A DNA stretch of 61,303 nt. It comes from Limnochordia bacterium (lineage in GTDB: Bacteria > Bacillota > Limnochordia > Darwinibacteriales > DTU012). Below the pieces are notes generated by a model. It worked only from the letters and a program-made list of their open reading frames with translations. It did no database searches and had not been told where the DNA came from. The stretch is taken from assembly GCA_007116145.1 (NCBI GenBank), contig SKJB01000103.1, positions 1 to 61,303 on the forward strand, read 5' to 3'. A program made the translations under genes and the position numbers. Shown piece after piece: positions 41,732 through 52,889 of this stretch (positions are counted from its first letter, which is position 1; the number at the start of each line of letters is the position of its first letter).

Positions 41732-42907
41732 TTGAAAAAACCATTTTTTTGGCGTTTGCTATTCATTCTTGCTCTATTCCTATCGACTACTGCTTCTGGC
41801 TTCACGCAATCCCTGGAGTTAAACGGCAAAGCCGGACTACTAATGGATGCAAAAAGTGGTAATATTCTTTTCGAATACAATATTGATGAGGCTCTACCCA
41901 TGGCTAGTATAACCAAAATCATGACTTTAGTATTAGTTTTGGAAGCTGTGGATCAGGGAAGGGTGTCCTTAACCGACTTGGTTACTACGAGTAAGCATGC
42001 TGCCTCTATGGGTGGTTCTCAGGTCTGGTTAGATATTGGAGAGCAACTTCCACTTAAGGAAATCATCTATGCAATTGCTGTCGGATCAGCTAATGACGCA
42101 GCGGTAGCAGTAGCGGAGTATCTCGCAGGTTCGGAACAGGCATTTGTAGCAATGATGAACGCCCGTGCGCAAGAACTTGAGTTATCCTCTACCGAGTTCT
42201 CAAATGCTAGTGGTCTACCCCCTAGTCAATTTCATGGTGGAGCACAGGTTATGAGTGCCCGTGATGTGGCAAACCTAACAAGGCATGCTTTATCAGTGCC
42301 CTTGATGCTGGACTTTGTTTCTACCTATGATTATACAATGCGATCTCAAAGCACAAAACGACCGCAATTATGGAACTATAATAAACTACTCCGCCGTTAT
42401 CAAGGTGTTGACGGTATGAAAACTGGTTTTACCACTGAAGCAGGCTACTGTTTGGCAGCCACAGCAAAGCGAGACGATCTACGATTAATTGCTGTTGTTC
42501 TTGGTTCAGTAAATGATGCAAATCGCGAAAACGATGTTCGAAAATTAATCGATTTTGGATTTCGTAAATACACGAGTCATGTAATTTTATCACAGGGAAC
42601 TAAGGTGGGCGAAATACAGATACGGCAAGGAGAACCAGAAATCGTTGCAGCTGTTCTTACATCAGATTTGGCTGTAACTGTGCTTCGTGGCGATGAAAGT
42701 AAAATTACCACAGAAATTCGATACAGTAACGATCTAAATCTACCTCTAGTCAAAGGAACTCCTATTGGTGTGATCCAAGCCGTCATTGATGACGACTCCA
42801 TTGGGTCAGCAGAGATAACGATTGCCGTTGATGTTAAGCGTGGAAGTTTTCCAAAACTGATCGTGCATATGGCTAACGCTATGATTGATTCTCTTCTCGA
42901 ATTCTAA
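41732..42907 (+). CDS. dacF: D-alanyl-D-alanine carboxypeptidase DacF
   Basis: A 391-residue secreted penicillin-binding protein of the S11 family. A signal peptide covers about residues 1-26 (WRLLFILALFLSTTASGFTQ). Catalytic motifs are S59-x-x-K62 (ASITKIMTL), SAND for SxN, and MKTGFTTEAG for KTG. A C-terminal beta-rich domain (PBP5_C-like) ends in an amphipathic helix (LIVHMANAMIDSLLEF) that would anchor it. It trims peptide stems in peptidoglycan; the link to spoIIA downstream is the same as in B. subtilis, where dacF affects spore cortex. Confidence 0.94.
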   Translation: MKKPFFWRLLFILALFLSTTASGFTQSLELNGKAGLLMDAKSGNILFEYNIDEALPMASITKIMTLVLVLEAVDQGRVSLTDLVTTSKHAASMGGSQVWLDIGEQLPLKEIIYAIAVGSANDAAVAVAEYLAGSEQAFVAMMNARAQELELSSTEFSNASGLPPSQFHGGAQVMSARDVANLTRHALSVPLMLDFVSTYDYTMRSQSTKRPQLWNYNKLLRRYQGVDGMKTGFTTEAGYCLAATAKRDDLRLIAVVLGSVNDANRENDVRKLIDFGFRKYTSHVILSQGTKVGEIQIRQGEPEIVAAVLTSDLAVTVLRGDESKITTEIRYSNDLNLPLVKGTPIGVIQAVIDDDSIGSAEITIAVDVKRGSFPKLIVHMANAMIDSLLEF

Positions 42908-42930
42908 GAGGGTAAAACCCTCTTTTTTTT
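42908..42930 (+). terminator. Intrinsic terminator after dacF
   Basis: GAGGGT (42908-42913), loop AAA, ACCCTC (42917-42922) and eight T residues. It separates dacF from the spoIIA operon, so the operon must have its own promoter. Confidence 0.93.
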
Positions 42931-42936
42931 GAATAT

Positions 42937-42966
42937 GCAGGAATTTTTAATATATAAAGCGAATGT
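42937..42966 (+). promoter_or_regulatory. SigH-type promoter of the spoIIA operon
   Basis: GCAGGAATT (42937-42945) fits the SigH -35 pattern RNAGGAWWW, and AGCGAATGT (42958-42966) fits RNNGAATWW with one mismatch, at a spacing of 12. In B. subtilis spoIIA is transcribed by SigH, so position and sequence agree. The leader to spoIIAA would be about 100 bases. Confidence 0.75.
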
Positions 42967-43076
42967 AAGAATAATAAGTGATCATTTCACTGAAAAAACC
43001 ACCAGCTTATTATTGGGTTGTTGGAACAAAAATAAGGGATTCCCAATGGAATCATGTGAAAGAAGGGAGAATAATT

Positions 43077-43412
43077 GTGTATTGTAGCGAAATAGTCGGA
43101 CAAGCATTAGTTATAACACTTGAAGGTGAATTCGATCTTCATACAGCTCCGCCGTTTAAAGAACATATCGATACCCAACTACATGGCAAACCTGAAATTA
43201 TCAATTTAATCTTTATTATGTCCAAATTAACGTTTATTGATAGTTCAGGCTTAGGTGTAATTCTAGGCCGCTACCGGATTATTCAGGAACGAGGCGGTCA
43301 GCTGATTTTTGCTGCACCAAGTCCACAGGTAAAACGTATTCTTGAACTGTCAGGAATGCAGAAAATATCCAAATTTTCTAACTCAGCTCGGGAAGCTCTT
43401 GAGTTAATATAG
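43077..43412 (+). CDS. spoIIAA: Anti-sigma F factor antagonist SpoIIAA
   Basis: A 111-residue STAS-domain protein. The conserved Ser pair at residues 56-57 sits in KLTFIDSSGLGVILGRYR and includes the Ser phosphorylated by SpoIIAB. When dephosphorylated by SpoIIE, it releases SigF in the forespore. The GTG at 43077 is 6 bases after AAGGGAGA and gives the normal N-terminus; longer in-frame starts would fall in the leader behind the SigH promoter. Confidence 0.93.
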   Translation: MYCSEIVGQALVITLEGEFDLHTAPPFKEHIDTQLHGKPEIINLIFIMSKLTFIDSSGLGVILGRYRIIQERGGQLIFAAPSPQVKRILELSGMQKISKFSNSAREALELI

Positions 43413-43426
43413 GGAGGGAATAGTGT

Positions 43427-43855
43427 ATGGATGCAAACTGGATGAAATTAGAGTTTCCAAGCGAAAGTGTCAACGTACAATTTGCCCGTACAACGGTTGC
43501 TATCTTTGCTTCGCAACTTGATTTTACTTTGGAAGAAATTGAAGAGATAAAGGTCGCTGTATCAGAAGCTGTTTCGAACTCTGTCATTCATGGTTATAGT
43601 GCAAGTCATGGAAATGTAATCATGAAAGTAAAATACACTCCAACACAATTTACTGTTAGTGTAGAAGATTTTGGTCGCGGAATTTCGGATATAGTCCAAG
43701 CTCAAGAATCCGGATATACTACCATACCAGAAGAACGGATGGGAATCGGATTGTATTTTATTCAAGAATATATGGATGAGGTCTCGCTCCACTCCGAAGT
43801 GGGCAAAGGTACAAAAATCGTAATGGTCAAAACTGTAAAACCGATACAAGGTTAG
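43427..43855 (+). CDS. spoIIAB: Anti-sigma F factor / serine kinase SpoIIAB
   Basis: A 142-residue GHKL-fold kinase. The N box is EIKVAVSEAVSNSVIHGY, the G1 region SVEDFGRGISD, and the lid and G2 region EERMGIGLYFIQEYMDEVSL. It binds and silences SigF and phosphorylates SpoIIAA. AGGGAGGG precedes the ATG. It sits between spoIIAA (14-base gap) and sigF (9-base gap), the classic tricistronic order. Confidence 0.95.
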   Translation: MDANWMKLEFPSESVNVQFARTTVAIFASQLDFTLEEIEEIKVAVSEAVSNSVIHGYSASHGNVIMKVKYTPTQFTVSVEDFGRGISDIVQAQESGYTTIPEERMGIGLYFIQEYMDEVSLHSEVGKGTKIVMVKTVKPIQG

Positions 43856-43864
43856 GTGGGCTAC

Positions 43865-44608
43865 ATGAATGGTTGGAATATTGATATACCAGACCACCCG
43901 TTGTTATCAGACGGTGAAACCAAAGAATTATTGCAAGCAGCCCATGCTGGTGATACCCAGGCTCGTAGTCGTCTGATTGAATCGAATCTACGGTTAGTGT
44001 TAAGTATCATTAACCGGTTTCAAAATCGTGGCTTTGAAATGGAGGATCTATTTCAAGTTGGATCGATTGGGCTCGTAAAATCAATTGATCAATTTGATTT
44101 AAGTTACCAGGTCCGGTTTTCTACGTATGCCGTTCCTAAGATAATCGGAGAAATCAAACGCTATATCCGTGAGTCTAGCACCTTACATATTTCACGTTCT
44201 TTACGAGAGCTTGCAAGTAAAGCAATTGAAGCAAAGGATCGATTGACTGACAGTTTAGGACGGGTTCCAACGATCAATGAGATTGCGTCTAAGCTTGGAG
44301 TCGAAAGAGAAGACATAGTCAGTGCGCTAGACTCAGTATCGCCGATCCATTCCCTACAACAAGTAGTTTACGAGGATGACGGACACCCAATTATGCTTGA
44401 GGATCAATTAGCGGCTAGCGCAGATAATATGTCCTTTTATCTAAGAGACATATTATCAAGTTTAGATTTCGATGAGAGACGCATTGTTTTACTCCGTTAT
44501 TTTGCAGAAAATAGCCAAACTCAGGTGGCTACTCTTCTAGGAATATCTCAAGCCCAAGTCTCTAGAATAGAAAAACGTGTTTTAGCACAGATACGAAAAG
44601 AGTTATAG
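43865..44608 (+). CDS. sigF: RNA polymerase sigma-F factor, forespore-specific
   Basis: A 247-residue sigma-70 family protein of the F/G/B group. Region 2: LIESNLRLVLSIINRFQNRG, DLFQVGSIGLVKSIDQFD, VRFSTYAVPKIIGEIKRYIR; then LHISRSLRELASKAIEAKD and region 4 with LSSLDFDERRIVLLRYFAEN and GISQAQVSRIEKRVL. Adjacent spoIIAA and spoIIAB fix it as SigF and not SigG. ATG at 43865 is preferred to an in-frame GTG at 43856 that overlaps the ribosome-binding site. Confidence 0.95.
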   Translation: MNGWNIDIPDHPLLSDGETKELLQAAHAGDTQARSRLIESNLRLVLSIINRFQNRGFEMEDLFQVGSIGLVKSIDQFDLSYQVRFSTYAVPKIIGEIKRYIRESSTLHISRSLRELASKAIEAKDRLTDSLGRVPTINEIASKLGVEREDIVSALDSVSPIHSLQQVVYEDDGHPIMLEDQLAASADNMSFYLRDILSSLDFDERRIVLLRYFAENSQTQVATLLGISQAQVSRIEKRVLAQIRKEL

Positions 44609-44625: not shown

Positions 44626-45447
44626 GTGGTTGCTGATTTACATTTACATACTACAGCATCTGACGGTACTTGGTTACCTGGAGAATTACCAAAGAAAGCA
44701 CGTGACCTCAGTATACGGATTATTGCGATAACTGATCATGACACTGTATACGGAGTAAAAGAAGCGCTAGCTAACACCCCTAACGGAATAACAATAATAC
44801 CTGGTATTGAATTAAGTACTAATTATCAGGGTGCGGAGGTACATCTATTAGGATACTGGATCGACACTCATAACCGAACATTGACAAAAACTCTAGTAGA
44901 ACTCAGAGCAGATCGTCACAATAGAGCAAAAAACATAATCGCTAATTTAGATGATCAAGAGATTCATATTCACTACGAGGATGTTAAAGCTCTAGCTGGT
45001 CAAGGTTCTCTCGGACGCCTTCATATTGCGAAGGCACTGATAGATGCTGGGTATGTTAAAAGTATTCAAGAAGCATTTCTCCGTTTTATTGGACCTACAG
45101 GGTCAGCCTATGAGCCGCGCACTCAACTATCAACAGAACAGGCTATTGGTTTGGTATTGGAAGCCGGAGGCGTGCCCGTCTTAGCGCATCCCGGGGTTAT
45201 AGGTCTGAATGACTCCGCCATTCCAAAACTAAAAGCTCTTGGCCTTCAAGGGCTAGAGGTTAAGCATCCCAATCACACATTTTTGCAAGAAGCGCATTAC
45301 TTATCCCTGTGCAAAAAGTTCGCTTTAGCGCCAACGGGAGGTTCTGACTGTCACGGACCTGGAGGGAAGGAGATACTCCACATTGGAACGGTTACAATTC
45401 CCGAGCGTTGGGTTTACCAATTAAAGGCAAGGATGTTATATCCTTGA
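44626..45447 (+). CDS. PHP-domain phosphoesterase (RNase AM/TrpH-like)
   Basis: A 273-residue single PHP domain with metal-binding motifs DLHLHTTASDGTW, AITDHDTVYGVKEA, IPGIELSTNYQGAEVHLLGY, LAHPGVIGL and GSDCHG. Relatives hydrolyse nucleoside 3',5'-bisphosphates and short RNA 5' ends (YciV/RNase AM). The GTG at 44626 follows AGGAGAGGAAG with a rather long gap. Its place right behind sigF, where spoVA genes often lie, suggests co-expression in the forespore, but this is inference. Confidence 0.9.
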   Translation: MVADLHLHTTASDGTWLPGELPKKARDLSIRIIAITDHDTVYGVKEALANTPNGITIIPGIELSTNYQGAEVHLLGYWIDTHNRTLTKTLVELRADRHNRAKNIIANLDDQEIHIHYEDVKALAGQGSLGRLHIAKALIDAGYVKSIQEAFLRFIGPTGSAYEPRTQLSTEQAIGLVLEAGGVPVLAHPGVIGLNDSAIPKLKALGLQGLEVKHPNHTFLQEAHYLSLCKKFALAPTGGSDCHGPGGKEILHIGTVTIPERWVYQLKARMLYP

Positions 45448-45449
45448 TC

Positions 45450-45477
45450 TTAACCCTGCTATTGCTTGCAGGGTTAA
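45450..45477 (+). terminator. Hairpin after the PHP gene
   Basis: TTAACCCTGC (45450-45459) and GCAGGGTTAA (45468-45477) form a perfect 10-bp stem with an 8-base loop, directly after the stop. There is no T-run, so factor-independent termination would be weak; it may act as a 3' end stabiliser. Confidence 0.5.
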
Positions 45478-45567
45478 TTGTGGAGAAAGAGAATACGTTT
45501 TAACATAACGAAAACTGATCCCAAACACCAAATTTACCAATCCAGACAAAAGGAGTGGCGACTAAAA

Positions 45568-46113
45568 ATGAGTCTTGTGGGAAAGAGCGTTACGTTAAGA
45601 CCTGTTCAAGTTGAAGATTTCCAAAAAATTGTGGAATGGACAAACTACCCAGAAATTCAGTCATATTGTGAAGGAGACTACCCTACATCATTAGAAGAGT
45701 GCGATGACTGGCATCGGCGATCTCGTAGCAATCGCTATCAAGAAAGATTTGCAATTTCTTTCAAGAATAACATTATCGGCGATATCGAACTTGATCAAAT
45801 TACTTGGCGAAGTGGAGATGCAGAACTAAGAATACGCATTGGTGAGCAAGCTTTATGGGATCGAGGTCTTGGTACAGATGCAATCACATGTTTGTTAGTA
45901 CACGCATTTATGCACATGAATTTGAATCGGATTTATTTAAAAGTCTACGTGGATAATCTGCGGGCGATTCGTTGCTATCAAAAGGTCGGTTTTAGAAAAG
46001 AAGGAAGACTACGCCGAAATAATCCTGAAGTAGCATTTCGTGAGATTATTTTAATGCGAGTACTAAAACGTGAATTTCTCCGTCGTCAAAATATATTGGA
46101 AAGCGTTGGATAG
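45568..46113 (+). CDS. GNAT-family N-acetyltransferase (RimJ/RimL-like)
   Basis: A 181-residue acetyltransferase of the Acetyltransf_3 type. Readings: VTLRPVQVEDFQKIVEWTNY, then EFAISF-like RFAISFKNNIIGDIELDQI, the acetyl-CoA loop LWDRGLGTDAI, and the characteristic NLNRIYLKVYVDNLRAIRCY followed by QKVGFRKEG. Such enzymes acetylate ribosomal protein N-termini, antibiotics or small amines; the acceptor is unknown. The ATG at 45568 follows AAAGGAG at a long spacing. A very long hairpin lies downstream. Confidence 0.88.
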   Translation: MSLVGKSVTLRPVQVEDFQKIVEWTNYPEIQSYCEGDYPTSLEECDDWHRRSRSNRYQERFAISFKNNIIGDIELDQITWRSGDAELRIRIGEQALWDRGLGTDAITCLLVHAFMHMNLNRIYLKVYVDNLRAIRCYQKVGFRKEGRLRRNNPEVAFREIILMRVLKREFLRRQNILESVG

Positions 46114-46124
46114 TTTTTTAATAA

Positions 46125-46171
46125 GCACATCAGAAACCAAGCAATCGAAGTTTGCTTGGTTTCTGATGTGC
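46125..46171 (+). repeat. Perfect 20-bp inverted repeat (hairpin)
   Basis: Bases 46125-46144 and 46152-46171 are exact reverse complements of 20 bases around a 7-base loop. No T-run follows on either strand, although TTTTTT precedes the left arm. It could be a terminator of unusual form, an RNA-stabilising 3' end or the footprint of a mobile element. The 136 bases from here to exbB hold no convincing promoter. Confidence 0.85.
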
Positions 46172-46307
46172 CCTCATATTATAGAAGATAGATACGAACT
46201 TTTTCTAGAGTGACAATAAGCTTTTTAAAAGCGTGCAAGGAATTTGGTTAGTAGTGGCGAATTTATACCTATAGACTTGTGTGCATTATAACATTGGAGG
46301 GGTATTT

Positions 46308-46922
46308 ATGCTTGAAATTCTTGTAAGTGGTGGTCCGGTAATGATTCCTTTATTTCTATGTTCGGTGATTGCGGTGGCAGTATCATTGGAAAGAGTGTGG
46401 TATTTAGTTCGTTCACGAGTCGACACCGACGATTTAATGGAGGATATTAAACTTTCTCTTGGACAAGGTAAAGTATTAGAAGCCATGCAATTAGCAAAGA
46501 AGTCTAAAGGTCCTGTTGCTGCGTTGTTATCAGCGGGGATTTCCTATTACGATCACGACAAGGAAGATATCAAAGAACGACTAGAAGAAGTTGGCAAGGA
46601 AGAAATTTACAAGATGGAAAAGCGTATGTCTCTACTGGATACTATCGTTACCATATCACCTCTGCTGGGTTTATTAGGGACTGTAACTGGAATTATTAAT
46701 AGTTTTAATGTCTTAGGTGCTCTAGAGGGTATCGATCAACCAGCAGCATTAAGCATAGGGATAGCAGAAGCGCTGATTACCACTGCGACAGGGCTCATTA
46801 TAGCTATTCCTACAATGGCTTTATATTCTTACTTAAGCAGCTTAATTGACCGAAATATAGCCGAAATGTCGAAACGTTCAACAGAATTAATTAATGTTTT
46901 GGGGTCAAGAGGTGAGTATTAA
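46308..46922 (+). CDS. exbB: ExbB/TolQ-type proton channel protein
   Basis: A 204-residue MotA/TolQ/ExbB protein with three membrane segments: near residues 8-25 (PVMIPLFLCSVIAVAVSLER), 108-130 (LDTIVTISPLLGLLGTVTGI) and 150-178 (IAEALITTATGLIIAIPTMA). The conserved LLGLLGTVTGI and IAEALITTATGLI patches are those of ExbB/TolQ; flagellar MotA is longer with four helices. With ExbD it forms the proton-driven motor that energises TonB. AGGGGTATTT precedes the ATG at 46308. Confidence 0.93.
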   Translation: MLEILVSGGPVMIPLFLCSVIAVAVSLERVWYLVRSRVDTDDLMEDIKLSLGQGKVLEAMQLAKKSKGPVAALLSAGISYYDHDKEDIKERLEEVGKEEIYKMEKRMSLLDTIVTISPLLGLLGTVTGIINSFNVLGALEGIDQPAALSIGIAEALITTATGLIIAIPTMALYSYLSSLIDRNIAEMSKRSTELINVLGSRGEY

Positions 46923-47326
46923 TGCAATTTGAGCGAACACTGAAACGAAAACCACGTCCGGATATGATGCCGATGATTGACGTTGTATTTTTTTTGCTTG
47001 TATTTTTTATGCTTTTTAGTACGTTAAAAGCAACCCCTTTAGGTATGGATCTGGAATTGGCTAAAGCTGTTAGTGGTTCTGCTGTCCAGAGTAAGCATTT
47101 TGAAGTTAGTATAAATCGAGATGGCATGATGTATGTTGACGGAAAAATGGTTACTGGACCCGAATTACAAGCACAGCTATCAATTGCCTTACAAGAAAAT
47201 CCTGACCTGTTTGTCCTATTTAACAACGATCGAAGACTTTATTGGGAGGATATTGCAAAAGCGCTTGATCACGTACGTGCAGTCGGTGCCTATCGATATG
47301 CTTTTGCTGTAGAACCAGAGATCTAG
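46922..47326 (+). CDS. exbD: ExbD/TolR-type protein
   Basis: A 134-residue bitopic protein. A basic N-terminus (RTLKRKPRPDMMPMID) leads to one membrane helix containing the essential Asp (MIDVVFFLLVFFMLFST), followed by a periplasmic domain with VSINRDGMMYVDGKMVTGPE. This is the complete ExbD layout. It overlaps the exbB stop by one base. Together with the tonB gene 191 bases on, it points to energised transport at an outer membrane; Tol-type or motility uses of similar pairs are the alternative. Confidence 0.93.
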   Translation: MQFERTLKRKPRPDMMPMIDVVFFLLVFFMLFSTLKATPLGMDLELAKAVSGSAVQSKHFEVSINRDGMMYVDGKMVTGPELQAQLSIALQENPDLFVLFNNDRRLYWEDIAKALDHVRAVGAYRYAFAVEPEI

Positions 47327-47517
47327 GAACTTGTTCGGTAATGTACTTACAGACGCACATTACAATGTACCTGAGCTTTTCACTATCGTGAAAAGATAGA
47401 GGTGTACTTCTTCGTTTCGCAATCTCGAAAAGTTATGTTTCCGATAGAGGGATTTGCATAATTCCTCGCTTCGATGACTTTTCGAGTTTACTCCTAGACA
47501 AAGGTGGCGAGTTTTTG
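47327..47517 (+). other. Intergenic region with several inverted repeats between exbD and tonB
   Basis: No gene is visible in these 191 bases. Three inverted repeats are present: GTAATGT/ACATTAC (47338-47344 with 47357-47363), CTTTTCAC/GTGAAAAG (47376-47383 with 47388-47395, loop of four) and CTCGAAAAGT/ACTTTTCGAG (47424-47433 with 47477-47486). They could fold a leader RNA for tonB or be regulator sites. I see no good promoter hexamers. Confidence 0.6.
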
Positions 47518-48606
47518 ATGATGTATATGCAGGATGGCGAAGATCATTCTATAAATAGATTCATATTTATATCTTTAGTTATACATGCCATTCTTTTTTG
47601 GACATATCCGCAGTGGAGTTCGCTGTTACTAAAGGAAGCTCCTGGATTGGAAAAGAGTGGAGTCATACAGTTTATTCAAGTTGAAACGTCCACAAGTCGG
47701 CAGATATCTCCGATAACCGATCGCTCATCACACACGTCGGCTCCGAAAGTAACAGAATCCCGGCCCATCCCGGAACAACCAAAACCTCTTCCTGCTGCCC
47801 AGGTTGTCCCAGAGCAACAGGAAGAACCGGTAATTCCAAGTCCGCAACTACGGCCCGATCTAACGCCAGAACCGAAACCTGAAGTGACTGTAAAACCCGA
47901 ACTACAGCCTGTGGTACAACCTCAACCGAAACCAAAGCCGCTTCAAAGCTCGGAAACGGTACAAGCAGAGGTGATAACTAGCGAGAGGGCAACAGAAACG
48001 ATTGTCATTGAGCCAAAACCGGAACCGATACCTAAACCAGAGCCAATACCAGAGCCAATACCAGAGCCAATACCAGAGCCAATACCTGAACCGATACCTG
48101 AACCGATACCTGAACCAGAGCCGATACCTGAACCAGAACCTCTACCTGTTCAAACAGAATCTGGTTCTAGTTCAGCCGAAGCATTAGTCACAGGAAGTGA
48201 TGCAGATACAGAAGGAGCACAAATAGATTCAGGAATGGGTGAAATTGAAGAATCAATACCAGCGCCACCACCACTACCAAGTGGTCGTTCGTTGCATGGT
48301 GGCGGAACGAGCCCAATTTACCCAAAAAATGCAGAAAACGAAGGGATAGAAGGGGTAGTACAGCTTGAAGTTATTGTCTCCACGACAGGAACAAAAATTG
48401 ATGTATACATTACTGGTTCCTCTGGCAACATCGGATTAGATCGCCAAGCTGAGCAAACGATACACCATCAATGGGAATTCAGAGGGGCAGCCCAAGACTA
48501 TGTTTTGCAGCTTGAGGTAGAGTTTGCTCGAAAAGTCGAAGATGGAGTAACTAGCTTCGAGGTTGATGTCCACTTCGGCGAAGTCCGTTGGTTAGAGTCA
48601 GAGTAA
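47518..48606 (+). CDS. tonB: TonB energy-transducing protein with long Pro/Glu-rich spacer
   Basis: A 362-residue protein. A short N-terminus leads to one membrane segment (about residues 15-33, FIFISLVIHAILFWTYPQW, with the His common to TonB helices). A proline-rich stretch follows (about 90-215), with PEPIPEP repeats that can span a periplasm. The C-terminal TonB domain begins near residue 275 (SPIYPKNAENEGIEGVVQLE, then VSTTGTKIDVYITGSSG and HHQWEF). With exbB/exbD it would power TonB-dependent outer-membrane receptors; none is encoded in the window. ATG at 47518. Confidence 0.9.
   Translation: MMYMQDGEDHSINRFIFISLVIHAILFWTYPQWSSLLLKEAPGLEKSGVIQFIQVETSTSRQISPITDRSSHTSAPKVTESRPIPEQPKPLPAAQVVPEQQEEPVIPSPQLRPDLTPEPKPEVTVKPELQPVVQPQPKPKPLQSSETVQAEVITSERATETIVIEPKPEPIPKPEPIPEPIPEPIPEPIPEPIPEPIPEPEPIPEPEPLPVQTESGSSSAEALVTGSDADTEGAQIDSGMGEIEESIPAPPPLPSGRSLHGGGTSPIYPKNAENEGIEGVVQLEVIVSTTGTKIDVYITGSSGNIGLDRQAEQTIHHQWEFRGAAQDYVLQLEVEFARKVEDGVTSFEVDVHFGEVRWLESE
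48027..48146 (+). repeat. Tandem 12-bp repeats in tonB encoding Pro-Glu-Pro-Ile
   Basis: About nine tandem 12-base units. The first block uses the form CCAGAGCCAATA and the second the form CCTGAACCGATA, so synonymous variants are grouped. This indicates growth of the spacer by slippage or unequal exchange in at least two phases. Copy number may differ between strains. Confidence 0.85.
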
Positions 48607-48627
48607 AACATGTAAAGGGGGGTATTG

Positions 48628-50655
48628 ATGTTTAGAAGTAGAGAACTTTGGATCGTTGCTTTAATATTTTCGCTAATATCTCTTAGTAGTAGTGTATTAG
48701 CTGTATCTTCAAACCTAGAAATAGCGAATGAATACATTCGTATTGTTGTCAATACTAGTGAGAATAACATGGGTCGTTTCTCAGTGGGTACCACTGGAGG
48801 AGATCCTGACCGCACTGGAGATGAGAATAAGCACTTAATTTATGGGGGAAATGAGCCCTGGACATCGTTTACCACGATTCGAATTGGAAATCAAAACTGG
48901 ATTTATGGGCAACCAACCAATCGACGTGCAGGCCGCGACGGGCAATACGGTAGCATGATTAGTGCGCCTACTATTATTGATAATACCATTGTTAGTGCAT
49001 GGCAGACAGGACCTATCGAAATTACCCAGCGGTTAGGCTTTGCCCGTAGTACAACAACTGGGTTGCAGGATTCAGCTAGAATCGAATATGAACTTCATAA
49101 CACCGATACGGTTACTCATTTTGTCGGATTACGGATAATGCTAGATACCATGTTAGGCCAAAATGACGGTGCACCATTTCGTGTTAATGATCAAGGATTA
49201 GTTACCGATAGTGTTTTCTATTCACACGAAATGCCGGAATTTTGGCAGGCCTTTGATTCAATCTCCAATCCTCAAGTAATGGCCCAGGGTACACTGCGAG
49301 GAGGAGAGGTCTCCACACCGGATCGAGTCTATTTTACTAACTGGGGAAGTTTAGCCGATTATTTATGGAACTTCGATTTCCAACCTGGACGTGACTATAC
49401 TCGTAAAGGCGAATTTGAACTTGACAGTGCTATTGCCCTGTTTTGGGATCCAACACCATTACAACCAGGTGAATCGCGAAATTATGTAGCTTACTATGGA
49501 TTAGGAGGCGTGACAGTTGCCCCCGGTGATCTATCACTCGGTGTTACATCACCCGCTCAGATTACAGCAGATGCTACACATCGACAGAGTTTCCCCATTA
49601 TCGCGTATATCCAGAATACTGGTAAAGGTGAAGCAAGGGATGTTATAGCGAGTATAAAGCTACCCGTTGGACTGATACTGCTTGAAGGAAATCCAACTAG
49701 AAACCTTGGAAACCTCGACGTAGGGGAGACGCTACAAACGAGTTGGCAAGTAATCCCAACAGGTGATTTTAGTGGCACTCTAACCTACGAAGTTGAAGTT
49801 GAAGCCATCAACAGCGAGTCCAATCGAGTTAAACGCGACATTGAAATTGTAACACCAGCTAAGTTGCAGATCGATCTCAGGGGTCCGTTTGCGTTGTCCA
49901 TAGTCAATGAACGGTTAACGCCTGTACCGATAGAGATTACTGCTATAATTCGAAATATCGGAGGATCGCCCGCTCACAGATTAAAACTTACCTTAGATCA
50001 TCCTATTGGCTTAACATTAGCAGCCGGAGAGCGTTCTCAAAAGTATACCGGTTCTCTCAACGCTGATGAAGAAATAAGTATCAATTGGTACTTAGAACCT
50101 ACTGGAGTTGCTGGCAACCTTCCTTATTCGTTAAGAGTACGCTCAAGTACGGGAGAGCAGGTCGTCAATAACTTTGTATTGCTCCCTAACTTAAGTGGTA
50201 AAGTCTGGTTTGATGCGCCCATTACTTACAGAGAGAATACGATTCATCCAGGTGAGTATTTCTCGGTTACCCTATGGGCAACAAATATCCGCAACTTTCA
50301 AAAGGCCACATTGGAACTAGGATTTAACCCAGACGTGGTAGACATCGTTGGGCACTCGTTAGATATAAGCCCAGGTACATTATTTATTGATGATAGTATC
50401 CAACCTGCCCGGCCCCTGGCTTGGCAGAGACCTATTGTTGATAATCGTCAAGGAACGGTGAGTGGAATAATCGGGGATCGGGGCGAAGATAAAGTGTTGG
50501 CACTAGCCTATGGTTCATTGATAACAATCCACTTTCGGGCTAAGGATGTTGGTAACGCCGAACTCACTATTAACAACCTCAAACTTTATGACAGCTGGGG
50601 TCAGATTATTAATGCACAGACATCAGATAGAGAAATAGTGGTTTATCCACGATAA
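48628..50655 (+). CDS. Exported multi-domain beta-sandwich protein with cohesin-like C-terminus
   Basis: A 675-residue protein with a signal peptide (residues about 1-26, WIVALIFSLISLSSSVLA). The first 280 residues form an unassigned beta-rich domain with GRFSVGTTGGDPDRTGDENK and YNVAYYGLGG-like ending. Then come two CARDB-type immunoglobulin-like repeats (about 285-405 and 405-520; for example IAYIQNTGKGEARDVIASIK and EITAIIRNIGGSPAHRLKLT). The last 150 residues resemble a cohesin or surface-layer-associated fold (ATLELGFNPDVVDIVGHSLD, YGSLITIHFRAKDVGNAELT). No membrane anchor or sorting signal is visible. Located 21 bases after tonB and 12 before the SLH gene. A role in outer-surface or periplasmic assembly is inferred. 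Confidence 0.75.
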   Translation: MFRSRELWIVALIFSLISLSSSVLAVSSNLEIANEYIRIVVNTSENNMGRFSVGTTGGDPDRTGDENKHLIYGGNEPWTSFTTIRIGNQNWIYGQPTNRRAGRDGQYGSMISAPTIIDNTIVSAWQTGPIEITQRLGFARSTTTGLQDSARIEYELHNTDTVTHFVGLRIMLDTMLGQNDGAPFRVNDQGLVTDSVFYSHEMPEFWQAFDSISNPQVMAQGTLRGGEVSTPDRVYFTNWGSLADYLWNFDFQPGRDYTRKGEFELDSAIALFWDPTPLQPGESRNYVAYYGLGGVTVAPGDLSLGVTSPAQITADATHRQSFPIIAYIQNTGKGEARDVIASIKLPVGLILLEGNPTRNLGNLDVGETLQTSWQVIPTGDFSGTLTYEVEVEAINSESNRVKRDIEIVTPAKLQIDLRGPFALSIVNERLTPVPIEITAIIRNIGGSPAHRLKLTLDHPIGLTLAAGERSQKYTGSLNADEEISINWYLEPTGVAGNLPYSLRVRSSTGEQVVNNFVLLPNLSGKVWFDAPITYRENTIHPGEYFSVTLWATNIRNFQKATLELGFNPDVVDIVGHSLDISPGTLFIDDSIQPARPLAWQRPIVDNRQGTVSGIIGDRGEDKVLALAYGSLITIHFRAKDVGNAELTINNLKLYDSWGQIINAQTSDREIVVYPR

Positions 50656-50667
50656 GGAGGACATGAT

Positions 50668-52062
50668 ATGACGTTAAATAAAGTTGTTAGTGGTTTTTTA
50701 GCCTTTGTACTTGTAATCTGTATGGGGGTACAGCCTGTTTCAGCTCGGTTAAACGATGTTCCTAATGATCATTGGGCTTATCAAGCCGTTGTGTCGTTAG
50801 TAAATAAAGGGTATTTAGCCGTTTTTGAAGACGGGACCTTTCAGGGTACCAGATCGGTTGATCGCTATACATTAGCGGTTACACTTGCTCGCATACTCGA
50901 CGAAATCGAAGCAGGTCGGGTCAGCGGTGTGAGAGATGATGCTACTTTACTGCGTGAGTTAACGACGGAATTCCGTGAAGAACTCGTGCAATGGTATGCA
51001 CAACAAGAGATAATCGAAGATAAGTTATCACACACGCAACGAGTGGGTGTCGCCACAGAAGATCGGTTAAATCGAATTGTCACTGCTCAAGTTGAGTTGC
51101 AAGAAGAAGTCACCAAACTTAAAGCAGACATCGTCAATGATGCAAGAACCATGCAAGCGCAACTCGAGACACATGGCAGCCTGTTAACGTCACATGATGC
51201 TGCTTTAGCATCACAAGAGGCTGCTTTAGCATCACAAGAGGCTGGTTTCGCAGAGCATGAAGCTCAGATCTCCAAACTACAATTAGCATTAGACGATGTG
51301 GATACACAACTCCGAACACAAGCGAAAACTATTGCAACCTTAGAGAATTGGACAGGTGAAAAAGGAGCTGTTTTGGCAGCTCTTACTCTTGAAGACACAC
51401 GAGTGAATAGATTAGTAAACCAACTTTTCGAGGAAATTGCTAGCATTACAGAGAAGATGGATGATGTTTCAAATGATATAGATGGCCGATTAGACGTGTT
51501 AGCAGAGCAGATAGATGAGCAAGGAATACAATTGGCTAGTGATAAGGATGATGACATTGCGAATTTGCAAGGTCAAATCACAAACCTATTGGGTGCACAA
51601 GCTCGTACAGATGGTGAAAGTGTACGCTCGTTTGAACAACTAAAAGTTCAGATCAGTAATTTGTCTACTAGAAATCAAGAAATAGAACAGGACCTTCAGA
51701 ACTTAGCTGTTCGTTTAGCGCGTGAAACGCAGACTCGTACAGAGGAATCTAACAAATTAGTCCGAGAACTAGCAGCAGAATTAAACTATATGCAGACTCA
51801 GATCCAAAATCTCGAAGCGCAGGTAGGTTTCTCAGATGAAGAATTAGCGATATTGATGAAGAGAATCACAGACGAAGTCTCTTCACAGATGAATGCAACA
51901 TTCCTTCGTGAACAGAGATTAGAACGACAGCTTAAAGAGCTCCAAGAGGATTTTGCTGGATTTAAAACTTCAATGGAAGAAGAGAATAAATCACTAAAAG
52001 GCACAGCAACTATTGCTATGGTTGCAGCTGGTCTTGCCATACTCGTTGGATTTATTCGCTAG
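50668..52062 (+). CDS. SLH-domain, coiled-coil outer-membrane tether (Omp-alpha-like)
   Basis: A 464-residue exported protein. Signal peptide about residues 1-26 (FLAFVLVICMGVQPVSA). One SLH domain at about 28-80 (DVPNDHWAYQAVVSLVNKGY, DGTFQGTRSVDRYTLAVTLA), the peptidoglycan/secondary-polymer binding type. Residues about 85-440 are almost entirely heptad-rich coiled coil with no Cys and few Pro. The extreme C-terminus is hydrophobic (GTATIAMVAAGLAILVGFI). This order equals Thermotoga Omp-alpha, a rod joining cell wall to outer membrane; OmpM has a beta-barrel instead, which is absent here. The match is architectural, not by alignment. Confidence 0.85.
   Translation: MTLNKVVSGFLAFVLVICMGVQPVSARLNDVPNDHWAYQAVVSLVNKGYLAVFEDGTFQGTRSVDRYTLAVTLARILDEIEAGRVSGVRDDATLLRELTTEFREELVQWYAQQEIIEDKLSHTQRVGVATEDRLNRIVTAQVELQEEVTKLKADIVNDARTMQAQLETHGSLLTSHDAALASQEAALASQEAGFAEHEAQISKLQLALDDVDTQLRTQAKTIATLENWTGEKGAVLAALTLEDTRVNRLVNQLFEEIASITEKMDDVSNDIDGRLDVLAEQIDEQGIQLASDKDDDIANLQGQITNLLGAQARTDGESVRSFEQLKVQISNLSTRNQEIEQDLQNLAVRLARETQTRTEESNKLVRELAAELNYMQTQIQNLEAQVGFSDEELAILMKRITDEVSSQMNATFLREQRLERQLKELQEDFAGFKTSMEEENKSLKGTATIAMVAAGLAILVGFIR
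51199..51246 (+). repeat. 21-bp tandem duplication encoding coiled-coil heptads
   Basis: The unit GCTGCTTTAGCATCACAAGAG occurs twice in tandem with partial copies on both sides. It encodes Ala-Ala-Leu-Ala-Ser-Gln-Glu, exactly one heptad, so the rod gains length without breaking register. Confidence 0.9.
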
Positions 52063-52075
52063 TTGGAATGAAAAG

Positions 52076-52163
52076 ACAGCTCACATTCACTAGGAACCTG
52101 TAATTTTAATATCGAACTTGATATTAAAGGGTAATCTAGTGAAAAATGTGAGCTGTTTTTTTT
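52076..52163 (+). terminator. Nested terminator after the SLH gene
   Basis: Outer stem ACAGCTCACATT (52076-52087) with AATGTGAGCTGT (52145-52156) is followed by eight T residues. A second tier CACTAG/CTAGTG and an inner perfect 9-bp hairpin (52105-52113 with 52120-52128) lie within. It ends the envelope module. Confidence 0.9.
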
Positions 52164-52382
52164 GCGTAGTTTTCTACCTGATTTCGTTTTTTTGTCCAGT
52201 CCGAATAACGAATAATTACGATACGCCGCTAGTGATAATAGCCGCTTAGCATCTATGGAGTTTTTGGTAACGATTATGACTGTTAGTTTTTTTCTTTGCA
52301 GGGAAATTAAGTAGCTAGAGAGAATATATAAAGGATAAACAGAAGAACCCAAGTATCTTTATATTTGAAAGGGGAGTTTATA
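52164..52382 (+). other. Intergenic region before cheW
   Basis: Together with the terminator this is a gene-free stretch of about 320 bases. Apart from the terminator and the candidate SigD promoter at 52206, I see only T-rich tracts and no riboswitch that I can recognise. Confidence 0.6.
52206..52232 (+). promoter_or_regulatory. Candidate SigD (sigma-28) promoter of the che operon
   Basis: TAAC (52206-52209), 15 bases, then GCCGCTAG (52225-52232). Consensus is TAAA-N15-GCCGATAA, so 3 of 4 and 6 of 8 bases agree at the right spacing. It stands about 150 bases before cheW, the first gene of the chemotaxis block. Confidence 0.5.
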
Positions 52383-52889
52383 ATGGCCGCTACGAAATCT
52401 ATGGAAAAAGAACGTCAGTTAGTCGTTTTCAGCTTGTACAAAGAAGAATTTGGAGTCGAAATTACTCAAGTTCGCGAAATTATAAAACCACCGAATATTA
52501 CGCGTTTACCACATGTAAGTGATTACATTGAAGGTGTAACAAACTTACGTGGCGAAGTCATTCCAGTTATTTCATTGCGGAAGCGTTTTGGCGTGGAAGA
52601 AGAGGAGACCACTACGCATACACGTATTATAATTGTTGAGATTAATGAGAGTCGTGTTGGATTTATTGTCGATGCAGTTAACGAGGTGCTACGCATACCT
52701 GAATCATCCATCGAACCCCCTCCACGTAGTGTAGCAGGATTACGTTCTGACTACTTAAAGGGAGTAGGTAAAGTTGATGATCGTCTGTTAATTTTGTTAG
52801 AAGTTAATAAGATCCTTACATCATCGGAACAGATTGAACTCCAATCGGTAGAAAACAAGATAGCTGCAAGTGAAGATCAGAGCGAATAG
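52383..52889 (+). CDS. cheW: Chemotaxis adaptor CheW
   Basis: A 168-residue CheW: LVVFSLYKEEFGVEITQVRE, then IIKPPNITRLPHVSDYIEGV, then NLRGEVIPVISLRKRFGV, and IIVEINESRVGFIVDAVNEV. It couples receptors to CheA; the same fold forms the C-terminus of CheA. GAAAGGGGAG lies before the ATG at 52383. The last 25 residues are a Glu/Gln/Ser-rich tail. First gene of the chemotaxis block, followed by fliM after 47 bases. Confidence 0.95.
   Translation: MAATKSMEKERQLVVFSLYKEEFGVEITQVREIIKPPNITRLPHVSDYIEGVTNLRGEVIPVISLRKRFGVEEEETTTHTRIIIVEINESRVGFIVDAVNEVLRIPESSIEPPPRSVAGLRSDYLKGVGKVDDRLLILLEVNKILTSSEQIELQSVENKIAASEDQSE

Follow-up and report, generated by a model that had tools for sequence, protein, structure and literature searches.

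Why would a bacterium of the Limnochordia carry exbB, exbD and tonB when its genome encodes no TonB-dependent receptor, and why are these genes followed by one for an exported protein and one for an S-layer homology (SLH) protein? The question arises from a 61,303-nucleotide stretch of DNA (contig SKJB01000103.1; hereafter the window), which belongs to a genome assembly of 2.76 Mb at 97% completeness (G000). Inspection of the open reading frames (ORFs) placed exbB, exbD, tonB, a gene for a 675-aa exported protein, to which we gave the working name XP4, and the SLH gene on the plus strand and tightly packed: exbB and exbD share one base, and gaps of 18 nt and 12 nt separate tonB from XP4 and XP4 from the SLH gene. 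The five genes form one operon, which is closed by a strong terminator and lies downstream of spoIIA-sigF; two genes on the same strand, encoding a PHP-domain and a GNAT protein, occupy the 1.7 kb between sigF and the operon. A preliminary description of this DNA had already given the consecutive genes, the single terminator, the distance from sigF and the SLH/coiled-coil/hydrophobic-tail identity of the last product, and the ORFs, Pfam matches, terminator folding and sequence searches collected in Table 1 bear out each of these. With a little more than even confidence, we propose that the operon encodes an outer-membrane tethering machine driven by the proton-motive force, Tol-Pal-like in its action and built mostly from other parts. 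The fixed gene order, the linkage to BamA, the missing receptor, the Omp-alpha architecture of the last protein, a neighboring hydrolase gene and a fusion protein in a relative all speak for this proposal.

A scan of GTDB contigs returned 224 relatives, the best 80 of which were used to analyze loci, with gene models derived from hidden Markov models. These 80 belong to Bacillota or are bacterial metagenome-assembled genomes (MAGs) and range from Limnochordia to Halanaerobium, Orenia, Halonatronum, Halanaerobacter and Frackibacter. The order exbB-exbD-tonB-XP4-SLH was found in 62 of the 63 loci that have all five genes, the sole exception (L138) probably being a mis-called tonB frame in high-GC DNA. 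Most incomplete loci are cut by contig ends; in L130 and L139, instead, tonB went unrecognized. Median intergenic gaps in the operon loci are 17 nt or less. In most Limnochordia-type loci the module lies behind dacF-spoIIAA-AB-sigF, and in one relative (L079, 12323-14156) spoVAC, spoVAD and spoVAE come after the SLH gene, which places the module inside a classical spoIIA-spoVA cluster. Halanaerobiia loci have no sigF nearby and still keep the five genes together; a PF07486 cell-wall hydrolase gene is the first or second gene past the SLH gene in all eight Halanaerobiia loci checked (L142 11586-12206, L149 11663-12244 and six more alike). Since the neighbors vary by lineage while the five genes stay, the five genes are a conserved unit.

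The distribution of the module was examined in an even set of 159 genomes drawn from the phylum. Of these, 39 encode BamA, and exactly those 39 also encode ExbD. Full-length XP4 was detected in 35 of the 39 BamA-positive genomes, two of them (G005 and G147) counted from contig-end fragments, and in none of the 120 others (Fisher exact p 4e-31, uncorrected for shared ancestry). Each of the four BamA-positive genomes without XP4 encodes TonB receptors, and these four seem to be Negativicutes. LpxC is present in 30 of the 39 BamA-positive genomes and absent from nine. The operon is confined to BamA-bearing Firmicutes, regardless of TonB receptors or LpxC.

The preliminary description had taken the organism for a diderm endospore-former and expected BamA, TonB-dependent receptors and lipid A genes in its genome; the first of these was found, and neither a receptor nor LpxC was. 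The assembly encodes BamA (586 aa), two further Omp85-type proteins and an OmpM-like protein of SLH-coiled coil-barrel type (L156, G000:C109), so that by gene content the host is a diderm. Two membranes have been shown in Limnochordia by electron microscopy (PMC11456536). Next to the OmpM-like gene is a further ORF, at most 313 aa long, that includes an SLH-like segment. The spoIIAA-spoIIAB-sigF genes support a spore-forming host, the sigF product scoring 304 bits against the SigF/SigG subfamily model, whose cut-off is 311. LpxC (PF03331), the committed enzyme of lipid A synthesis, was found neither in G000 nor in four sampled members of its family (G003-G006), and the outer membrane of the host therefore probably does without standard lipopolysaccharide; the BamA-positive genomes that have no LpxC suggest outer membranes without standard lipid A. 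Contamination, which had been named as an objection, was ruled out by the matching GC content of operon (43.0%) and window (41.7%) and by the identical gene order in dozens of independent genomes.

No Plug domain was detected in G000, and likewise none in 23 of the 35 XP4 genomes (G000 included). In the absence of a TonB-dependent receptor from the host genome, classical nutrient import by its operon TonB is unlikely, and we rejected it as an assignment for the system. The remaining 12 XP4 genomes do encode a receptor, and in 10 of these a separate TonB_C gene is found at a distance of 2-4.3 kb from the receptor, accompanied in six by ExbD; the operon TonB is therefore usually not the receptor's own. 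The receptor-linked TonB domains score 65-91 bits against PF03544 and the operon ones 23-70. The TonB receptor loci of G166:C115 and G194:C116 adjoin a gene for an OmpA-like protein, which scores about 70 bits against TIGR02802 and stays below the cut-off. The 2009 genome paper on Halothermothrix orenii by Mavromatis et al. reported ExbB, ExbD and TonB without receptors, raised the question why they are there and suggested another function for them (PMC2626281).

The motor and transducer look functional, judging from the residues that they conserve. ExbB has LGT and TTA-type motifs, and TonB an S-x3-H helix and a proline-rich linker, so that motor-coupling residues are present; a beta-prone segment after the TonB helix resembles the D-box/motor box (compare PMC10907165, PMC12204202). 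The membrane Asp of ExbD stands in a strict motif in 59 of 70 operon copies and was recognized by eye in the other 11, where V or L precedes it. Against NCBIfam models the motor proteins scored higher as TolQ (98 bits, vs 77 for ExbB) and TolR (43, vs 39 for ExbD), every score being below its cut-off. The ExbB tree left Tol vs Ton unsettled, with E. coli TolQ and ExbB grouped together on long branches.

The last protein of the operon gave phmmer matches to Deinococcus radiodurans SlpA and to SLH chains of Veillonella parvula OmpM (Table 1). The Pfam scan of the window copy returned no SLH domain match, and Halanaerobiia orthologues do match PF00395. Its middle part is free of proline, with a heptad periodicity unequaled in shuffled sequences, and a C-terminus of about 20 hydrophobic residues closes almost all of the untruncated orthologs. 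The protein thus carries the three features of the Omp-alpha type, an N-terminal SLH module, a coiled coil and a C-terminal hydrophobic anchor, and where a C-terminal beta-barrel would stand, its coiled coil is followed by a single hydrophobic helix. By this architecture it is Omp-alpha-like, from which we infer a placement between peptidoglycan and outer membrane. In Thermotoga, Omp-alpha/OmpA1 has the same N-terminal SLH module, a coiled coil of about 316 aa (about 345 here) and about 20 C-terminal hydrophobic residues, and has been reported to link the toga to peptidoglycan (PMC3387000). The Thermotoga gene ompA1 (TM0477) is numbered beside the porin gene ompB (TM0476), whereas the gene described here stands with a motor and XP4. 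OmpM of Negativicutes and SlpA of Deinococcus share a sequence-related periplasmic SLH module and a role in tethering peptidoglycan to the outer membrane; both end in a beta-barrel, unlike the protein of the window. In the eLife study of diderm Firmicutes, SLH proteins of the Halanaerobiales outer-membrane locus were considered likely OmpM homologues, and TonB and ExbB went unmentioned (PMC5007114).

XP4 was predicted to consist of a signal peptide, a supersandwich N-domain, two immunoglobulin (Ig)-like NEW3 domains and a type II cohesin-like end. It is present in 72 of 81 relatives, mostly as a single copy. Among named records, those of Limnochordia MAGs and of Peptococcaceae bacterium 1109 come closest to it, with 61-66% identity. 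The N-domain is the most conserved part (65% mean column identity in the alignment); its model (pLDDT 88, pTM 0.89) matched GH94 and GH116 N-domains, cyclic glucan synthase and the YidC periplasmic domain in Foldseek, with E of about 1e-6 to 1e-5. A fold search with full-length XP4 returned generic Ig-chain matches alone (integrins and others), at TM scores of about 0.3 or less. Partial XP4 matches occur in 12 BamA-negative genomes, some being XP4 N-domains within large proteins. In one BamA-negative relative (L184, 6571-13308) a 2245-aa protein joins an XP4 N-domain to two SLH modules, and in four others (L182, L183, L185 and L186) the N-domain was seen in other proteins, some of them large, the L183 copy being broken.

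The operon corresponds gene by gene to tolQ-tolR-tolA-tolB-pal of E. coli, with motor, motor, transducer, exported periplasmic protein and peptidoglycan-binding, outer-membrane-associated protein in the same order, and we propose a Tol-Pal logic for it. In Tol-Pal, force from TolA on TolB-Pal frees and redeploys Pal (PMC8928145). In the machine proposed here, ExbB-ExbD would use proton flow to move TonB, whose C-terminal domain would engage XP4 as a periplasmic intermediary in the place of TolB; XP4 would in turn engage the SLH rod, which would take the place of Pal, gripping peptidoglycan with its SLH end and embedding its hydrophobic tail in the outer membrane. Tethers would be released, moved or loaded by the force so applied where the envelope is being remodeled, that is, at division and, in spore-formers, perhaps at asymmetric division and engulfment. 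Both systems would thus be driven by the proton-motive force, and both are linked to a cell-wall protein, CpoB in the one and the Halanaerobiia hydrolase in the other. The parts differ: XP4 combines supersandwich, Ig and cohesin-like domains and has no TolB beta-propeller, an SLH-coiled-coil rod replaces the OmpA-type lipoprotein as tether, and the transducer domain is TonB_C. No Pal (TIGR02802) scored above cut-off in the 39 BamA-positive genomes, and canonical Tol-Pal membership was ruled out by the absent Pal and the absent TolB fold. The system works like Tol-Pal and is not a member of it. From Ton systems, with which it shares motor and transducer families, the S-x3-H transmembrane motif and the proline-rich linker, it differs in that most of its genomes have no receptor, its genes are fixed with XP4 and the tether, and tonB always lies inside the motor operon. 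PorE of Bacteroidetes is likewise a proposed non-canonical replacement of Tol-Pal (PMC12204202); it is a CpoB-TolB-carboxypeptidase-Pal fusion, and none of those domains occurs here.

A 2025 survey found Tol-Pal in Gracilicutes only and Ton systems among diderm Firmicutes in Negativicutes only, and expected further systems that stabilize the outer membrane (PMC12204202). Atypical diderms have been noted to have neither tolB nor pal (PMC8871954), and Tol-Pal is unreported in diderm Firmicutes (PMC12204202, PMC8871954). In agreement with the preliminary description, which knew of no system with this exact gene set, we found no description of it in the open-licence literature; an earlier one elsewhere is possible.

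Several observations weigh against the tethering machine. We infer the contacts between TonB, XP4 and the rod, together with the direction of the force, the tail in the outer membrane and the role in division or engulfment. The transducer domain is closer to TonB than to TolA, and operon and receptor-linked motors split weakly in the ExbB tree (75/76). Two XP4 genomes, G157 (with a weak Plug match) and G208, have a Plug domain and no second TonB. XP4 is not homologous to TolB, and the fold of its N-domain is one typical of glycan-related proteins, so that XP4 may do something else than bridge TonB and rod. Thermotoga maritima, used as a control, gave zero ExbD matches despite its SLH rod; rods of this kind are therefore not dependent on a motor in every organism. 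The co-occurrence counts of BamA, ExbD and XP4 are uncorrected for ancestry, and the tail of the SLH protein could alternatively sit in the inner membrane. On this last account the protein would be a tail-anchored inner-membrane rod to peptidoglycan and the motor would pull peptidoglycan in place of the outer membrane, a reading that the signal peptide and the hydrophobic helix at the very C-terminus, followed by hardly any residue, also fit. We consider this highly improbable, given the architecture shared with Omp-alpha and the strict co-occurrence with BamA.

Ordinary Ton nutrient import is an unlikely explanation as well, though the TonB_C domain and Ton-like motor, the carbohydrate-associated fold and cohesin-like end of XP4, and the 12 XP4 genomes with a receptor would agree with it. 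It would call for a transporter too divergent to recognize, with XP4 as a substrate- or glycan-binding accessory and the SLH gene as a bystander; yet Plug is absent from most of these genomes, receptors are usually accompanied by their own TonB and often ExbD, and the partners that stay constant are XP4 and the tether rather than a gene for a barrel protein. The position of most Limnochordia-type loci behind dacF-spoIIAA-AB-sigF, the downstream spoVAC-AD-AE genes of one relative and the SleB/CwlJ-type hydrolase of Halanaerobiia could instead point to a module that manages the outer membrane at asymmetric division, engulfment or spore outgrowth, and then only. We regard that as quite improbable, since the five genes hold together in Halanaerobiia where no sigF is near, and their distribution tracks BamA. 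Little credence, finally, is given to a cell-surface or S-layer/cellulosome-like anchor of SLH protein and XP4, in which the XP4 cohesin would present enzymes and assembly would be Ton-energized. The type II cohesin-like end, the SLH module and the large SLH proteins of BamA-negative relatives that contain XP4-like domains are in its favor, but the SLH module is of the periplasmic OmpM/SlpA tether type and the linkage to an outer-membrane marker and a periplasmic motor is strict. A cellulosome anchor was rejected, there being no dockerin (PF00404) in the 35 XP4 genomes.

A wider form of the tethering proposal is offered tentatively, as a possibility that we hold with less than even confidence. 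The operon might be a Tol-Pal equivalent outside Gracilicutes, old and independently assembled, retained in the Limnochordia and Halanaerobiia lines for as long as the outer membrane was kept, even without LpxC, and its place in the sporulation cluster might reflect a task of handling that membrane as spores form.

Table 1. Positions in the window of the operon, its domains and its surroundings
Feature	Position	Strand	Evidence or remark
dacF-spoIIAA-spoIIAB-sigF (context)	41732..44608	+	kept upstream in Limnochordia-type genomes
PHP-domain and GNAT genes (context)	44626..46113	+	a PHP gene precedes the operon in most Halanaerobiia loci as well
Strong hairpin between GNAT gene and exbB	46123..46171	+	46112-46190 fold -36.2 kcal/mol, z -9.8; U tract absent
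exbB/tolQ-type motor subunit	46308..46922	+	MotA_ExbB 1.5e-32 (Pfam); GGAGG upstream of start; LGTV and TTA motifs
exbD/tolR-type motor subunit, membrane Asp in MIDVVFF	46922..47326	+	ExbD 1.7e-24 (Pfam); sole ExbD of G000
exbD-tonB gap, 188 nt, with inverted repeats	47327..47514	+	unusual vs the 17-nt median
tonB	about 47518..48606	+	transmembrane helix with S-x3-H motif, proline-rich linker, TonB_C 2.9e-11 (Pfam)
TonB C-terminal domain	48313..48498	+	sole TonB_C of G000
XP4, exported multidomain protein	about 48628..50655	+	in 72/81 relatives; model pLDDT 87
XP4 N-terminal domain, galactose-mutarotase-like supersandwich	48709..49512	+	model, Foldseek, alignment
XP4 two Ig-like (NEW3-type) domains	49531..50211	+	NPCBM_assoc 9e-6 for the first; strands in model
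XP4 C-terminal type II cohesin-like domain	50236..50643	+	profile vs PDB: ScaB 3l8q 7e-15
SLH-coiled coil-tail protein, Omp-alpha-like putative tether	50668..52062	+	phmmer, heptad and tail analyses
SLH module, OmpM/SlpA type	50746..50910	+	SlpA 7e-11; OmpM chains 1e-7
Coiled-coil rod of SLH protein	50950..51987	+	residues 91-440 free of proline; none of 500 shuffles reaches its heptad power
C-terminal hydrophobic tail of SLH protein	52003..52059	+	in almost all untruncated orthologs
Intrinsic terminator	about 52070..52163	+	-42.3 kcal/mol, z -8.6, then T8

The exbD-tonB gap contains the inverted repeats CTTTTCAC/GTGAAAAG and AATCTCGAAAAGTTAT/ATGACTTTTCGAGTTT, the first palindrome being single-copy in the window. 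An Rfam scan of 46000-52500 gave no matches, and a promoter scan of the locus performed no better than chance. Downstream of the SLH gene the window continues with cheW, fliM, fliY and cheA. The GNAT gene (45478-46113) is similar to SpeG-type spermidine acetyltransferases; since the SLH ligand in Negativicutes is polyamine-decorated peptidoglycan, a link between this gene and the SLH protein is conceivable.

If the operon is indeed a tethering machine, it would be a possible explanation for the receptorless ExbBD-TonB of H. orenii, and active control of the attachment between outer membrane and wall would have arisen with different parts. The five genes would be a tight marker of the outer membrane in Limnochordia and Halanaerobiia, and the way in which a two-membraned spore-former handles its outer membrane would become testable.

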